DNA of 39,990 bases, taken from positions 1-39,990 of the IMG/VR virus record IMGVR_UViG_3300037432_000005. One strand, given 5' to 3'. The translations under genes were made by a program, and so were the position numbers. Positions 8,829-35,558 of this stretch are shown in pieces. The stretch is from a virus. The notes under the pieces were generated by a model that saw only the letters and a list, made by a program, of their open reading frames with translations, did no database searches and was not told the DNA's origin. How positions within the stretch are numbered: position 1 is the stretch's first letter; the number at the start of each line of letters is the position of its first letter.

Positions 8829-9496
8829 GCGAGCCGACCTGGACGATCCTCGTGCCCACCGTGGCGCCGCGCGCCGAGAAGTTTGAGCGCCTGCTGGGCA
8901 TCCTGCTGCCGCAGCTCGACCCCTACGGCGGTCGCGTACGGGTGCTCGCCTATCTGAACCATGGCGTGCCCGTGCTCGGTGCCATCCGCGACCGCCTCGT
9001 CGACACCGCCACCAGCGACTACGTGTCGTTCATCGATGATGACGACACGGTGGTCCCCGATTTCGTTGACCGGATCGTCGCCGCGCTCGATAGCACGCCG
9101 TCGCCGGATCACGTCGGCTTCCGCCTCGAGTACATCGTCAACGGCGTGCACGAGCAGTACGTCGATCACTCGCTGCGCTGGCCACGGTGGGGGCGCTACG
9201 ACGGCATGCTGTGCCGGGACTTCACTCACGTCGACCCGATCCGGCGCGAGATCGTCGCGACCGGCCGCTTCGAGACCATGCGCCCGGGCTGGGCTGAGGA
9301 CCGGCATTGGGTCAAGCAGGTGCGCGGCCTGCTCCGGGGACGCATCGAGGCGTACGTCGATGACGTTCTGTATCACTATCGCTACTCGCCGGAGAACAGC
9401 ATGTGGACCCGCGCGGTCGCCAACGCGGGCATTCCGCTTGGCGAGCGCAAGCCGGTTGAGCACCCGCACTTCGCTTGGCACCCGGACTCAGACTGA
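8825..9496 (+). CDS. GT-A family glycosyltransferase 1
   Basis: The gene encodes 223 residues, starting at GTG 8825, which overlaps the previous stop. The N-terminus is a Rossmann-like GT-A fold (WTILVPTVAPRAEKFERLL), followed by the acidic metal/nucleotide-sugar motif FIDDDDTVVPDF and an EDRHWVKQVRG segment that looks like the acceptor-side acid region of family 2 enzymes. Actinophages are known to glycosylate capsid and tail proteins with enzymes of this kind encoded among virion genes, so a virion protein is the likely acceptor. A second glycosyltransferase lies at 9845-10570. Confidence 0.8.
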   Translation: MSEPTWTILVPTVAPRAEKFERLLGILLPQLDPYGGRVRVLAYLNHGVPVLGAIRDRLVDTATSDYVSFIDDDDTVVPDFVDRIVAALDSTPSPDHVGFRLEYIVNGVHEQYVDHSLRWPRWGRYDGMLCRDFTHVDPIRREIVATGRFETMRPGWAEDRHWVKQVRGLLRGRIEAYVDDVLYHYRYSPENSMWTRAVANAGIPLGERKPVEHPHFAWHPDSD

Positions 9497-9521
9497 GCAG
9501 GAACCTGCTAGGCTCGCGAGC
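9495..9521 (+). promoter_or_regulatory. Operator-overlapping leaderless promoter for the Acb2-like gene
   Basis: CCTGCTAGG at 9504-9512 is preceded by a degenerate inverted copy (GAGCAGG, 9495-9501). The -10 TAGGCT (9509-9514) ends 7 nt before ATG 9522, and there is no ribosome site, so the transcript is probably leaderless. This gives an internal promoter inside the connector operon. Confidence 0.65.
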
Positions 9522-9848
9522 ATGACTGATGAGATGATTCAGTACGGCTCGGCCGAGCACGCAGCGGATATCACTGTCGACCGCCAGCCGGCCACGCGTG
9601 ACGCGATGCAGTGGCTCACGTTTCGGCATCTGCCGCCGAACCTGCAGGCGTTTTCGGCTCCGTTTTTCGACGCGGCGGTTTCGCTACTCAAGCGCATCTC
9701 TGCTGACTCGCCCGAGCTGACCTCGGCGCTGAACGGGCTGATCGCCGCCAAGGACCACGCGATGCGAGCGGGCATCAAGAGCGATACCGGGCGCGCGGGC
9801 GCCGTTCCCCGCCCACAGAAGGTCGTCGCGCCACCGGTGTTCTCGTGA
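9522..9848 (+). CDS. Acb2/Tad1-hairpin-like protein (candidate anti-CBASS/anti-Thoeris sponge)
   Basis: The gene encodes 108 residues. The block TFRHLPPNLQAFSAPFFDAA, an acidic helix, and then ALNGLIAAKDHAMRA match my recollection of the Acb2/Tad1 hairpin family (an F-x-H-L-P-x-x-L-Q-x-x-S start and an A-L-x-x-L-x-x-A-K-D end to a two-helix hairpin). Acb2 proteins form hexamers that bind cyclic di- and trinucleotides and so block CBASS; Tad1 relatives bind the Thoeris signal. It is not a virion-type sequence although it sits among virion genes, and it has its own promoter (9495-9521). The family match is from memory, not a search. Confidence 0.55.
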   Translation: MTDEMIQYGSAEHAADITVDRQPATRDAMQWLTFRHLPPNLQAFSAPFFDAAVSLLKRISADSPELTSALNGLIAAKDHAMRAGIKSDTGRAGAVPRPQKVVAPPVFS

Positions 9849-21849: not shown

Positions 21850-22444
21850 CCTTCGGTGACGACCTCACCCGCTAGTCGTCGTGGCGGCCCGATCCTGCGT
21901 AATGCCGCTACACCGTTCTCGCACCGTGACCGGGAGTCGAACCCGGACCGTTCCCCTTTCGAGGGACCCTCTGCCAGAGAGCTGTCACGATGCCCAACTC
22001 TGTCGAGCTGGGATACGACTACCGTACGGCTCTAGAAACCGTCCGGTCGAAGAGCAGGAGTTCTACGGGGGTCGCCTGAGACGGTGCGTCGCTTCCGTCA
22101 CACTGGCTTCCCAGTTCCGGGCGTACGTCCCGGTTCCGTTCCGCTTCCTTCCTGCCGCGACCGCCCGAGGGATTCGATCCCCAGCATCACGCCCACCGGG
22201 CGGACGGCCGGACCCAGATGCTATCCGGGCCAGTTCGGGGCGGTGTGTACCGCGAGCTTTAACCGACCTAGGTTCGACCGGACCGCCCCTTGAGCTTTGG
22301 GGCCCGTCTTTCCGGGCTGTCAGCTTGGCTACCTAGTCCCGGCCTGAGGCAGGAGCGGAGAACCGCTCTCTTCGAGTTCGCTTCGGGCTTGCGCCTGTGG
22401 GCTCCGTCTAGTTCTCAGTCATTTCCGGTGGGGCTTGCCTTACA
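21850..22444 (-). ncRNA. Large structured non-coding RNA (about 0.55 kb), GOLLD/ROOL-like in setting
   Basis: This 0.6-kb stretch has no credible protein gene on either strand. It follows a near-consensus minus-strand promoter (22451-22478) and is full of short stems: 21993-22012, 22026-22042, 22102-22115, 22117-22133, 22183-22222 enclosing 22190-22202, 22237-22243 with 22283-22289, 22285-22303, 22302-22317 and 22353-22368. In two of them a wobble pair on the minus strand would be an A-C mismatch on the plus strand, so the minus strand is the functional RNA. A tRNA-like domain lies at its 3' end. Phage GOLLD and ROOL RNAs have this size and often lie next to tRNAs; membership is not shown. 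Confidence 0.6.
21922..21991 (-). tRNA. tRNA or tRNA-like domain, anticodon uncertain (GAA, or CGA)
   Basis: On the minus strand a 7-bp acceptor (ATCGTGA with TCACGGT), a CTCT/AGAG D stem with the GG of the D loop, an anticodon-type hairpin TCCC-TCGAAAG-GGGA, and a perfect T arm CCGGG-TTCGACT-CCCGG can be drawn. A 7-base loop gives anticodon GAA (Phe) but puts C at position 33 instead of U; a shifted loop would give CGA (Ser) with poor pairing. CCA is not encoded. These flaws suggest a divergent tRNA or a tRNA mimic attached to the structured RNA. Confidence 0.5.
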
Positions 22445-22450
22445 ACTCAA

Positions 22451-22478
22451 AGCCTAGCAGGTTCCTAGCAGGTGTCAA
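22451..22478 (-). promoter_or_regulatory. Strong promoter of the structured RNA, with tandem operators
   Basis: On the minus strand TTGACA (22473-22478) and TAGGCT (22451-22456) are separated by 16 bases, the best promoter match in the window. Two direct copies of CCTGCTAGG (on + as CCTAGCAGG at 22453-22461 and 22464-22472) fill the spacer and run into the -10. The -35 lies just after the stop of the exonuclease gene. The start point would be near 22444, just before the RNA. Confidence 0.8.
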
Positions 22479-24298: not shown

Positions 24299-24549
24299 GA
24301 GAGCGCGCCCTTGTACAGCACGATAGCGTTGGGCGGAGCGTCGGCGTCGTCGCTGTCGGGGTAGTGCACCTCGATGGCGTCGTAGCCGTCGCGGGTGAGG
24401 TCGCTCAGCGCGAGCAGGTACCACGAGCCCGCGGTGCTCGGCTCGCCCTGCTCGTTGTAGTTCAGCTCGCGCGCCCGCAGCTCGGTCAGGTTCTCCGAGG
24501 TCTCGGCCGGCAGCTTCACGCCGCCCGGGCCGGCGTTGATCGGGACCAT
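24295..24549 (-). CDS. Unknown small acidic protein
   Basis: The gene encodes 84 residues from ATG 24549 (TGATG overlap with the upstream stop). It is acidic, with SWYLLALSDLTRDGYDAIEV, then HYPDSDDADAPPNA in the middle. No family was recognised. The four-gene string 24818-24011 is fully overlapped, which points to co-translation. Confidence 0.6.
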   Translation of the reverse strand: MVPINAGPGGVKLPAETSENLTELRARELNYNEQGEPSTAGSWYLLALSDLTRDGYDAIEVHYPDSDDADAPPNAIVLYKGALS

Positions 24550-24818
24550 CACGTTCCACTCTCCCAGTGCTCGGCGATCAGCTCGACCGAGCCGAACGCG
24601 TCGATCAGATTCTGTGCCGCCCAGAACTCGGCGGACATGTCGGGCTGGTCAATCACCGTGACCTCGATGCCGGCCGGGGGCCAGCCGGTCACGCGCTGGC
24701 CGTGCCGCACGAGCGTGACCGCCAGCGTCGGCTCGCGCTCGATGTGCTCGACGCCCCACAGGGCGCCGTCATGCCCAAGCACGACGGCGCCGCTGTGGAC
24801 CTGCTCATACGTCGTCAC
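24549..24818 (-). CDS. Unknown small protein
   Basis: The gene encodes 89 residues from GTG 24818, which overlaps the upstream stop (GTGA). The first half looks like a small beta-barrel (SGAVVLGHDGALWGVEHIE ... LAVTLVRHGQRVTGW) similar in outline to SH3-like or KOW-like folds, followed by a helix ending LIAEHWESGT. No family was recognised. Confidence 0.6.
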   Translation of the reverse strand: MTTYEQVHSGAVVLGHDGALWGVEHIEREPTLAVTLVRHGQRVTGWPPAGIEVTVIDQPDMSAEFWAAQNLIDAFGSVELIAEHWESGT

Positions 24819-25832: not shown

Positions 25833-26027
25833 TCAGACTTTCTCGATCTGCGCGGTGAACGTCTGCCCGTTCGGCAATGCGATCACCATCCGCGCGAAGC
25901 GGCTATTACCCGACCCGGGCGTGACGCCCACTCTGGCACCCCGCAGCGAGCTGCGGTCCGTCTCGGCCCTGCGCTGCACGAAGCTGCCGAGCACTTCCGC
26001 GACGTTCTGTGCGCTCATCTCTCCCAT
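25833..26027 (-). CDS. First gene of the minus-strand operon, unknown
   Basis: The gene encodes 64 residues. ATG 26027 is preferred over GTG 26033 because it lies 7 nt after the -10 (TAGGTT, minus strand) and so fits the leaderless pattern. The protein has an N-terminal helix (AQNVAEVLGSFVQRRAETD) and a C-terminal pair of strands (FARMVIALPNGQTFTAQIEK). No family was recognised. As the first gene beside the operator-rich divergent promoter it could be regulatory. Confidence 0.6.
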   Translation of the reverse strand: MGEMSAQNVAEVLGSFVQRRAETDRSSLRGARVGVTPGSGNSRFARMVIALPNGQTFTAQIEKV

Positions 26028-26091
26028 ACCCACTAACCTAGCAGGAACCTGCTAGGTGCGCAACCTGCTAGGTACATGCTAAGGTCAGCGC
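26028..26091. promoter_or_regulatory. Divergent leaderless promoters with three operator copies
   Basis: CCTAGCAGG (26037-26045) and CCTGCTAGG (26048-26056) form an inverted pair, and a third CCTGCTAGG lies at 26064-26072. Leftward: TTGCGC (minus; 26058-26063), 17 bases, TAGGTT (26035-26040), then 7 nt to ATG 26027. Rightward: TGCGCA (26057-26062), 17 bases, TAAGGT (26080-26085), then 6 nt to ATG 26092. The two -35 elements share TGCGCA. This is the densest operator cluster in the window. Confidence 0.75.
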
Positions 26092-26391
26092 ATGGCGAAC
26101 AACGCGACCGCGGCGGGGCCGCGGTTTTCCGAATCCCTATCCGTCCTGATCGACCGACCGACCCGCGAGCTGATCATGGGTCTCGCGCTCACGTCGGCTG
26201 ACGCCGCCGGCACGAGCCGCCCGAAGGAAGGCGAGACCCTGCGCGGTCTGATTGCCGCCGCGGTCGACGACCTCGAACGCACCATGAGCAAGCGCGCCTT
26301 TCAGGCCACCCGGGCACGCGGCGCGAAGTGGCTCGCCGACCGCGACGCCGAGGCCGCGGCGCGCAAGCGCGACGCGCTCGCGCAGGCGTAG
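26092..26391 (+). CDS. Ribbon-helix-helix regulator candidate
   Basis: The gene encodes 99 residues and is the only gene between its operators and a terminator. FSESLSVLIDRPTRELIMGL, then ALTSADAAG and GETLRGLIAAAVDDLER, fits a strand-helix-helix layout of Arc/MetJ/omega-type repressors, followed by a long basic helix (KRAFQATRARGAKWLADRDA). Such proteins bind short repeats arranged directly or inverted, as seen at the dispersed CCTGCTAGG sites. Three copies lie in its own promoter region, so autoregulation and control of the regulon are inferred. Confidence 0.55.
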   Translation: MANNATAAGPRFSESLSVLIDRPTRELIMGLALTSADAAGTSRPKEGETLRGLIAAAVDDLERTMSKRAFQATRARGAKWLADRDAEAAARKRDALAQA

Positions 26392-26413
26392 GCTCACAAT
26401 CCCGAGAAACAAG

Positions 26414-26454
26414 ACGCCCGCGGCGACCGGTTAGGCGGTCAGCGCGGGCGTTTG
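26414..26454 (+). terminator. Terminator after the regulator gene
   Basis: ACGCCCGC (26414-26421) pairs with GCGGGCGT (26444-26451); inside it GACCG and CGGTC form an inner stem. TTT follows. It separates the regulator from the primase gene. Confidence 0.7.
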
Positions 26455-29234: not shown

Positions 29235-29271
29235 CCTGATAGGACTACCTAAAACCTGCTAGGTTTACGTC
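29235..29271 (+). promoter_or_regulatory. Operator pair and leaderless promoter
   Basis: CCTGATAGG (29235-29243) and CCTGCTAGG (29255-29263) are direct copies. The -10 TAGGTT (29260-29265) ends 6 nt before ATG 29272. No good -35 is seen. Confidence 0.65.
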
Positions 29272-30268: not shown

Positions 30269-30285
30269 CCTGCTAGGTTGCCAGC
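30269..30285 (+). promoter_or_regulatory. Operator and leaderless promoter for the secreted I36-like gene
   Basis: CCTGCTAGG at 30269-30277 overlaps the -10 TAGGTT (30274-30279), which ends 6 nt before ATG 30286. The -35 area falls in the origin iterons. Confidence 0.65.
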
Positions 30286-30753: not shown

Positions 30754-30822
30754 TGTGGTCTGCGTTACATTGCCCAGTTCAGACCCCCTAAAACCTACTA
30801 GGTCTGCTACACTTACAGCATG
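30754..30822 (+). repeat. 69-bp promoter repeat, copy 1
   Basis: Bases 30754-30822 and 31025-31093 match at about 65 of 69 positions and both end with the ATG of a gene. Each has CCTACTAGG (30794-30802 here), a -10 TACACT (30808-30813) and 6 nt to the ATG (30820). The conserved TTGCCCAG upstream is too far from the -10 to be a -35, so it may be an activator or second regulator site. Confidence 0.8.
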
Positions 30823-31017
30823 ACGAAGACAGAGAAGATCGAAGCGGAAATCGCCAAGCTGGCCGGCGACCGGGGCGACATCGGGGGCCTGCTCGAGGAC
30901 CTCCGGGCGGCCGTCCGAGCCGAGATGCGGCGGGACCTGCTTGCCGACCTGCGGGACCCGCGGATGGCGCTGACCACGGTCACCGAGGCGGTCGACTTCA
31001 TCAAGAGCAACTACTAG
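30820..31017 (+). CDS. Small charged helical protein, unknown
   Basis: The gene encodes 65 residues: IEAEIAKLAGDRGDIGGLLE, DLRAAVRAEMRRDLLADLRD and a short Thr/Val end. It is helical and rich in charged residues, like a small coiled-coil or DNA-binding accessory protein. It is a single-gene unit between two copies of the same promoter. No family was recognised. Confidence 0.6.
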   Translation: MTKTEKIEAEIAKLAGDRGDIGGLLEDLRAAVRAEMRRDLLADLRDPRMALTTVTEAVDFIKSNY

Positions 31018-31024
31018 GAACGGG

Positions 31025-31093
31025 TGTGGTCTGCGTCACATTGCCCAGCTCAGACCCCCTAAAACCTACTAGGTCTGCTACACTAATAGCATG
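31025..31093 (+). repeat. 69-bp promoter repeat, copy 2
   Basis: This is the second copy of the promoter at 30754-30822, with CCTACTAGG at 31065-31073, -10 TACACT at 31079-31084, and 6 nt to ATG 31091. The duplication places two unrelated small genes under the same control. Confidence 0.8.
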
Positions 31094-31309
31094 ACGATGA
31101 CAGAGATTGACTGGGACGCCGAGGAAGCCGCCGCCGCGAGCATCGGACACGACCTCTACTGCTACCAGTGGGCGGCCGAGATGCTCGAGGTCGAGGACCC
31201 GACCGAGCAGCTGAGGGCGCAGATCGCCGCCGGGACCTACATCTGCCACTGCGAGAACAGCGAGTACTGGAACCAACCCAACAAGGCGTGGAACGTGGCG
31301 CCGGAGTAA
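31091..31309 (+). CDS. Small acidic Trp/Cys-containing protein, unknown
   Basis: The gene encodes 72 residues, acidic, with several aromatic residues (LYCYQWAAEMLEVEDPTEQL; ICHCENSEYWNQPNKAWNV) and a CHC motif. The promoter is shared in sequence with the gene at 30820 but the proteins are unrelated. No family was recognised. A GGGCCCC-GGAA-GGGGCCC hairpin (31316-31333) follows, without a T run. Confidence 0.6.
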   Translation: MTMTEIDWDAEEAAAASIGHDLYCYQWAAEMLEVEDPTEQLRAQIAAGTYICHCENSEYWNQPNKAWNVAPE

Positions 31310-32038: not shown

Positions 32039-32074
32039 TTGTCAGACCTACTAGGTTCCTGCTAGGGTTGGCGC
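32039..32074 (+). promoter_or_regulatory. Operator pair and leaderless promoter of the methyltransferase
   Basis: TTGTCA (32039-32044), 18 bases, TAGGGT (32063-32068), then 6 nt to GTG 32075. CCTACTAGG (32047-32055) and CCTGCTAGG (32058-32066) fill the spacer with a TT between them. Confidence 0.72.
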
Positions 32075-32695
32075 GTGAATCTTGCTATTGCCGACCCGCC
32101 ATATCCCCCCTTTGTAGGTTCCGGCGGGCGTAAGAACCGAGCCTCACGCTGGTACGGATACGGTCAGCGCTCGGTCAAGGATCGCCCGGCTGATCGGCAT
32201 GAGAGCGCTCATGAGTGGGATGATCCGACTCGGCACCGGGCCCTGCTGCTGCAGTTGCTCGACGTGACAGACGGCTTCGCGATTTGTACGTCCCCCGATG
32301 GGCTGGCCGCGTATGGCGAGCTGCCCGCGGCTGCACGTATCGCCGCATGGGTGAAACCGAACGCCAATCCCGGGTCGCATCGCATGCGTTCGCTGTGGGA
32401 GCCCGTCATCGTGTATTGCCCGGAGGGGCGTAGGTCCAACAGGGGGGGGCGTGGCATGGTTCCGGACGTATGGACGGGCAATGCCCCTCGTTCCGGCTTC
32501 CCGGGCGCTAAGCCGGAAGGATTCACGCGATGGATTCTCGACTGCCTGTCGTACGACCCATTCGTCGATGCCGTGTGGGACGTTTTTCGTGGATCGGGCG
32601 CGGTCACCGGCGCGGTCATCACGTACGCGAGAGAGCGCGGCGCCGAGGTATCTTCGGACGCTAACGGTGTTGTTAACCTACTAGGTTCCTGCTAG
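32075..32695 (+). CDS. DNA adenine N6-methyltransferase
   Basis: The gene encodes 206 residues from GTG 32075, 6 nt after the -10. The catalytic motif DPPY is at residues 7-10 and the SAM-binding FRGSG at 171-175. This order, with the catalytic motif first, is that of beta-class enzymes, close to the MT-A70-like phage methyltransferases. No restriction enzyme lies beside it, so it is probably an orphan that protects phage DNA or has a regulatory role. GC content and codon choice are lower than in the neighbours. Its stop codon TAG (32693-32695) lies within the next promoter's -10. Confidence 0.8.
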   Translation: MNLAIADPPYPPFVGSGGRKNRASRWYGYGQRSVKDRPADRHESAHEWDDPTRHRALLLQLLDVTDGFAICTSPDGLAAYGELPAAARIAAWVKPNANPGSHRMRSLWEPVIVYCPEGRRSNRGGRGMVPDVWTGNAPRSGFPGAKPEGFTRWILDCLSYDPFVDAVWDVFRGSGAVTGAVITYARERGAEVSSDANGVVNLLGSC

Positions 32696-32704
32696 GCTCT
32701 GAGT
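32670..32704 (+). promoter_or_regulatory. Operator pair and leaderless promoter
   Basis: TTGTTA (32670-32675), 17 bases, TAGGCT (32693-32698), then 6 nt to ATG 32705. CCTACTAGG (32677-32685) and CCTGCTAGG (32688-32696) are arranged as at 32047-32066. The whole promoter overlaps the end of the methyltransferase gene. Confidence 0.75.
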
Positions 32705-32851: not shown

Positions 32852-33122
32852 CCCGTACGCGATCTTCGCCAATGCCCCCGAGAGCAAACGCAACCTGATC
32901 AAGACGGTGCTGCCGGAGCTCTACGACTGCCTTGCGCGGGTCGACGGACCCGAGTCCGAGCGCCTCGTATGGTGCGCGGTCGCCGGAGAGGAGCACCTGC
33001 AGGCGCGCGTCCCGGCCGTTGGGCGGTTCGTCCGTGGCGGCGCGCCTGCCTGCGCCGAGCACCTGCGTAAGGCCGGCATCACCAAGCCCTGGCCATTGAG
33101 CGCGAAGGAGAACTACGGATGA
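32844..33122 (+). CDS. Unknown protein
   Basis: The gene encodes 92 residues from GTG 32844, chosen because the frame upstream overlaps the zinc-finger gene and reads as low-quality Arg/Gly sequence. The protein has helices (ESKRNLIKTVLPELYDCLAR), a WCAVAGEEHLQARVPAVGRF segment, and ends with ACAEHLRKAGITKPWPL. No family was recognised. Its TGA overlaps the next ATG. Confidence 0.6.
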   Translation: MADPYAIFANAPESKRNLIKTVLPELYDCLARVDGPESERLVWCAVAGEEHLQARVPAVGRFVRGGAPACAEHLRKAGITKPWPLSAKENYG

Positions 33123-33397
33123 TCATCCGCATCAACGCCGACACCGCGGGGCGGGCCCTGCGCGAGCTGCACGAGTCGCGGGGGATGTCGCGCCGCGCGT
33201 TCGCCAGGCAGCTCGGGCAGCTCACCATGCGCGACCCGCTGAGCGTGAACGAGCAGCTGTACGAGTGGTGCCGGCCGGAGCACGTCAACGGCCGATACCC
33301 GAACATGATGACCTACGAGACGGCGCTCAACGCCCTCGGCCTGCAGCTCGCCATCGTGCCTGTCGAGACGCTCGATAACCGCCATTCTGATGCGTAG
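33119..33397 (+). CDS. Cro/C1-type helix-turn-helix protein
   Basis: The gene encodes 92 residues. The helical N-terminus RALRELHESRGMSRRAFARQ fits the first helices of a Cro/C1 (XRE) fold. The region around NEQLYEWCRPEHVNGRYPNM, then TYETALNALGLQLAIV, closes the fold in the way of phage HTH proteins. It could be an alternative regulator for the dispersed operators or an autoregulator of this operon. No operator lies directly upstream because the gene is internal in the operon. Confidence 0.6.
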   Translation: MIIRINADTAGRALRELHESRGMSRRAFARQLGQLTMRDPLSVNEQLYEWCRPEHVNGRYPNMMTYETALNALGLQLAIVPVETLDNRHSDA

Positions 33398-35536: not shown

Positions 35537-35558
35537 CCTAGCAGGAACCTGCTAGCTT
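35529..35558 (+). promoter_or_regulatory. Inverted operator pair and promoter
   Basis: CCTAGCAGG (35537-35545) and CCTGCTAGC (35548-35556) form an inverted pair. TTGCAT (35529-35534), 18 bases, TAGCTT (35553-35558). Unlike most others this transcript has a leader, with GAGAGGG before ATG 35601. Confidence 0.68.

Follow-up and report, generated by a model that had tools for sequence, protein, structure and literature searches.

A small protein of an undescribed family as the predicted regulator of operator-bearing leaderless promoters in uncultured actinophages

The Arc and Mnt proteins of phage P22 are small regulators that recognize short adjacent operator subsites and control their own synthesis, and Arc acts at one promoter region and not genome-wide. 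In Mycobacterium tuberculosis, the ribbon-helix-helix antitoxin MazE6 is an autorepressor whose 18-bp operator includes the TANNNT -10 element of its own promoter (PMC9477884). The immunity repressor of Cluster A mycobacteriophages has many sites, the stoperators, across an actinophage genome; these asymmetric sites are recognized by a single repressor monomer, which has two DNA-binding domains, and they also halt elongation (PMC9283540).

The locus described here is part of an IMG/VR virus record that was analyzed over its entire length (39,990 bases, 68% G+C; called the window in the following) and whose terminase is nearest to the terminases of Tsukamurella phage TPA4 (65%) and Gordonia phages. 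The gene at 26092-26391 (+) encodes a 99-amino acid protein, called P, from a leaderless ATG start, and it is likely that P is a phage regulator and autorepressor that acts on operators across the genome. P resembles Arc and Mnt in its small size and in the short adjacent sites at its own gene. In contrast to Arc, however, its sites are distributed over the genome, and there was no significant profile similarity in an alignment that included Arc, without Mnt. MazE6 provides a precedent for a small autorepressor placed over its own -10 element, but it controls one operon and has a toxin partner, whereas P would control about ten phage promoters, has no toxin partner and no detectable sequence relation to MazE6. 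With the Cluster A repressor, P shares the many sites over one phage genome (15 exact ones in the window), but the sites of P are near-palindromic and located on promoters, and P lacks a helix-turn-helix match. P is a member of an undescribed protein family, and its apparent role is of a known kind.

The operator word CCTGCTAGG is present in 11 exact copies in the window (0.18 +/- 0.44 expected), and the number of exact CCTRCTAGG sites increases to 15 once CCTACTAGG is counted too; relatives with the whole record counted have 3-10 exact sites each. The consensus is a near-palindromic 11-bp sequence, ACCTRCTAGGT. ACCTACTAGGT is a perfect odd dyad and the dyad ACCTA-C-TAGGT is perfect at several sites, a symmetry that would fit the binding site of a dimer. 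A total of 36 site pairs are spaced by exactly 11 bp, in both direct and inverted orientation. This is in line with a sequence-only reading of the locus, which had argued for a ribbon-helix-helix protein from short half-sites with fixed spacing in either orientation, but this trait is not unique to the ribbon-helix-helix (MetJ/Arc) superfamily. The 9-bp pairs with a 2-base gap mentioned there were also recovered, inverted at P and direct at three other loci (22453/22464, 32047/32058 and 32677/32688). Among the matches listed in a literature search for the operator word all were unrelated. Furthermore, the tandem operator has 0 matches in 257 Gb of bacterial and archaeal genomes and is therefore neither a host promoter nor the box of a host regulator.

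The divergent promoter of P contains three exact operator copies, as originally read: copy 1 at 26037-26045 (-), copy 2 at 26048-26056 (+) and copy 3 at 26064-26072 (+). Copies 1 and 2 are inverted to each other over 10 bp without a mismatch, separated by a 2-base gap (11-bp period), and copies 2 and 3 are direct repeats at a spacing of 16 bp. Copy 1 holds the extended -10 element (TGCTAGGTT, 26043-26035) of a leftward leaderless transcript, which starts with the ATG at 26027 of a 64-amino acid gene (25833-26027, -), the first gene of an operon that includes the exonuclease. Copy 3 is centered at about -24 from the start of P and lies in the spacer of the P promoter, whose extended -10 element TGCTAAGGT (26077-26085, +) is located 6 nt before the ATG and is a degenerate operator copy with 2 mismatches. 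The layout agrees with the earlier suggestion that one complex could act over both divergent transcripts, as the -10 elements of both promoters are covered by sites, in the window as well as in the relatives. The proposal of TGCGCA (26058-26063) as a shared -35 element is weak. The hexamer is 16/17 nt away from each of the two -10 hexamers, but only 3 of its 6 positions agree with TTGACA and the relatives do not retain it in their upstream sequences, and we rejected it as a conserved -35 element.

The reality of the P gene is indicated by a coding-like G+C profile and by conservation in the relatives. Downstream of P and before the primase gene there is a strong G+C-rich hairpin of the AACGGCGCGG...CCGCGCCGTT type (about 26412-26453, +; z = -3.66), and a comparable strong hairpin is located 3' of P in all 15 relatives with downstream DNA read (among L027-L042 and L159-L163). 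It has no strong U tract and is absent from the terminator scan list, but it is likely a terminator or attenuator, which agrees with the description of P as standing alone before a terminator. The conservation of this hairpin between P and the primase gene sets P apart from the replication operon.

Throughout the window, the sites overlie the extended -10 element (TGCTAGnnT) and the spacer of leaderless promoters. In the window and 8 relatives, an ATG follows TGCTAGnnT at a distance of 6-7 nt in 33 of 73 cases (about 1.5 expected), which is, as judged from the sequence, the geometry of a leaderless transcript, and a TTG is present 17-18 nt upstream of the -10 element in 11 of 18 tandem promoters of the same set. 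Operators coincide with the -10 element at 9504-9512, 29255-29263 and 30269-30277 (all +), in front of the leaderless genes 9522-9848, 29272 and 30286. At 32047-32066 and 32677-32696 (both +) two operators are arranged in tandem 11 bp apart, and the second one forms the -10 element of the leaderless GTG gene 32075 and of the leaderless gene 32705, respectively. A degenerate tandem with one mismatch in each copy is found at 39026-39045 (+), with the first copy as -10 element of the leaderless gene 39043. CCTACTAGG is located in the promoter spacers of the leaderless genes 30820 (30794-30802, +) and 31091 (31065-31073, +). An inverted pair is present at 35537-35556, consisting of 35537 (-) and 35548 (+) with one mismatch, and the tandem operators 22453 and 22464 (22453-22472, -) belong to a leftward promoter upstream of the tRNA-Phe and 21818 genes; the tRNA-Phe (gaa) gene itself is located at 21921-21991 (-). 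An operator-blind promoter search of the window (TGnTAnnnT, 5-8 nt, then ATG or GTG with an ORF of at least 25 amino acids) yielded ten leaderless promoters, all of which carry an operator. A sigma-70 consensus scan did not pick up the operator-bearing promoters, probably because TAGGnT differs from TATAAT.

With the 26092 product alone as query, the IMG/VR collection and phage records gave no match, and homologues surfaced only after contigs had been collected by the operator. Scanning IMG/VR for the paired operator alone led to contigs with the same promoters, and each of the 7 long contigs that the DNA pattern alone recovered from this phage group encodes a P homologue, with 32-44% identity to the window protein. 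Four further P-bearing contigs were found by protein alone, each with operators upstream of the homologue, and another five through the helicase or the 24549 protein, by searches independent of both P and the operator. In total, there are 16 homologues besides the window's own, all of them in uncultured related phages, and bacterial genomes searched with the P family gave no match. At least two sites with at most 1 mismatch are located just upstream of P in 16 of the 17 genes including the window, compared with 1.3% of random 110-nt stretches. These sites are typically centered at about -14, -26, -51 and -62 from the ATG and cover both divergent promoters. The 7 operator-found contigs are not independent evidence for the operator, in contrast to the nine others, eight of which have at least two upstream sites. 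Among 19 records sampled by other genes, exact sites are present in all 5 with P (3-10 sites) and in none of the 14 without P, which are distant phages and independent lineages only in part; a backward control pattern has 0-6 copies in the sampled records. Both P and the sites are absent from Tsukamurella phage TPA4 and Gordonia phage TinyDot. In a 22.9-kb contig fragment (G004) tandem sites are present and no P was found. The most divergent member (G020, L163) has only 3 perfect sites and degenerate copies before P, and an altered specificity of its homologue is possible. The long contig G007 (60% G+C over the part read) also matched the DNA pattern but lacks P, and this match was judged unrelated because the sites cluster in one short repeat-rich stretch.

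The co-occurrence of gene and operator in 17 phage records and the conserved self-regulating position strongly support the proposed regulator identity of the 26092 product. Since no leaderless promoter here lacks sites, any leaderless gene would be expected to have an operator in front of it, P included, and co-inheritance of unrelated core traits within one phage group might conceivably yield the same co-occurrence. Seven genes are kept in all 8 relatives (RusA-like nuclease, 274-amino acid protein, exonuclease, 24549, P, primase and helicase), and among them P alone combines small size and lack of a family assignment with a non-acidic composition in the window and a start at a conserved self-operator. 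Across the family the pI of P ranges from 5.3 to 10.0 and is not uniformly basic.

An alternative that we regard as improbable is that the 9-bp word is simply the strong extended -10 element of the phage (TGCTAGGTT), duplicated at some promoters and bound by host RNA polymerase only, while P does something else. In many promoters one copy indeed coincides with the -10 element 6-7 nt before the ATG. However, full copies are present in the spacer, apart from the -10 element, at 26064, 30794 and 31065, which indicates that the operator is more than a promoter word. Moreover, the upstream ACC half is kept before TGnTAnnnT even though no -10 rule requires it, and both the exact 11-bp spacing of direct and inverted pairs and the co-occurrence of the sites with P speak against polymerase as the only binder. 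We also consider it quite unlikely that another phage protein binds the sites, either the helix-turn-helix-like 33119 product or the conserved 89-amino acid protein 24549. The first (33119-33397) has a weak HTH_31 match (E 0.019) and is the sole clear helix-turn-helix candidate, but it was matched in only 1 of the 12 records searched. The second is conserved in all 8 relatives, but it has no DNA-binding family match, a net charge of -10 and a pI of 4.5, so that P is the only conserved small protein free of the objections raised against these two. The 24549 gene (24549-24818, -) encodes an acidic core protein with 48-64% identity in the relatives and without any family match. Finally, P as an activator or as a regulator of elongation or antitermination at the same sites has a similarly low probability: the sites are linked to promoters and small early regulators of similar size are common among phages, but the sites overlap the -10 element and the spacer, so that a protein bound there would obstruct polymerase, and a TTG -35 at the usual distance in many of the promoters makes an activator seem unnecessary.

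For P as a repressor, we infer the following mechanism, including binding itself, repression rather than activation, the dimer arrangement and the timing. Most likely, P would bind ACCTRCTAGGT as adjacent dimers at intervals of one helical turn (11 bp). The operators lie on the extended -10 element (TGnTAnnnT) and on the -35/-10 spacer of leaderless sigma-A-type promoters genome-wide, and the likeliest effect of bound P would be to keep RNA polymerase off these elements. In this way P would repress its own gene, the divergent operon with the exonuclease and some ten further transcripts, which would probably serve to shut off early genes at a set time. As the P family has no match in bacterial genomes, we consider a role in early-gene timing more probable than one in immunity; among the window proteins scanned, which were part of the protein set, none was recognized as an integrase or lysogeny repressor. 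An unannotated protein family would thereby gain a probable function and be tied to a defined DNA word, and a regulator together with a regulon would become available for an actinophage group in which no cultured member was found here. Furthermore, operators inside leaderless -10 elements would couple phage timing in a compact way to a transcription style that is common in actinobacteria.

The chances that P has a ribbon-helix-helix fold are about even. The helical part of the proposed layout was recovered, since helix A (22-39) and helix B (46-64) are present at high confidence in both AF2 monomer models, which were built from 8 and 12 sequences, but neither contains a strand. In the N-terminal segment (12-21), residues 12-19 are modeled as helix with low-to-middling confidence, as are residues 19-24 (L037 numbering) in the second model. 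Strandless monomer models neither prove nor exclude the fold, because the ribbon would form between two monomers. Conservation along P is ambiguous as well, with a stronger strand-type moment in 15-21 and a stronger helix-type moment in 12-20. Sequence searches against Pfam, PHROGs, NCBIfam and PDB gave no significant match and no helix-turn-helix match. In hhalign against CopG, Arc, Rv0298 and a designed relative the probability was 0.5%, with EQLHVLVDxxT aligned to the CopG strand in the expected register. A Foldseek search of the model against PDB and BFVD gave no significant match, and the histone rows in its output were dismissed as weak helix matches. The sole ribbon-helix-helix chain in a second structural comparison, the MazE-mt10 antitoxin (8ypj), is at rank 2 in VIA (Z 4.3, rmsd 4.0, 49 aligned), which is within noise. 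Only tentatively would we go further and take P as the founder of a new DNA-binding family outside the ribbon-helix-helix proteins that serves as master switch of this uncultured actinophage group through operators fused to leaderless -10 elements.

Two observations concern the promoters themselves. The leaderless gene 9522-9848 (108 amino acids) is nested in a longer ORF, for which a gene caller that goes by length would place the start at 8961, and the operator-promoter at 9504 likely marks the true start. In addition, near-identical promoter cassettes (CCCCCTAAAACCTACTAGGTCTGCTACACT) at 30770-30830 and 31041-31100 precede two unrelated-looking small genes and represent a duplicated promoter.
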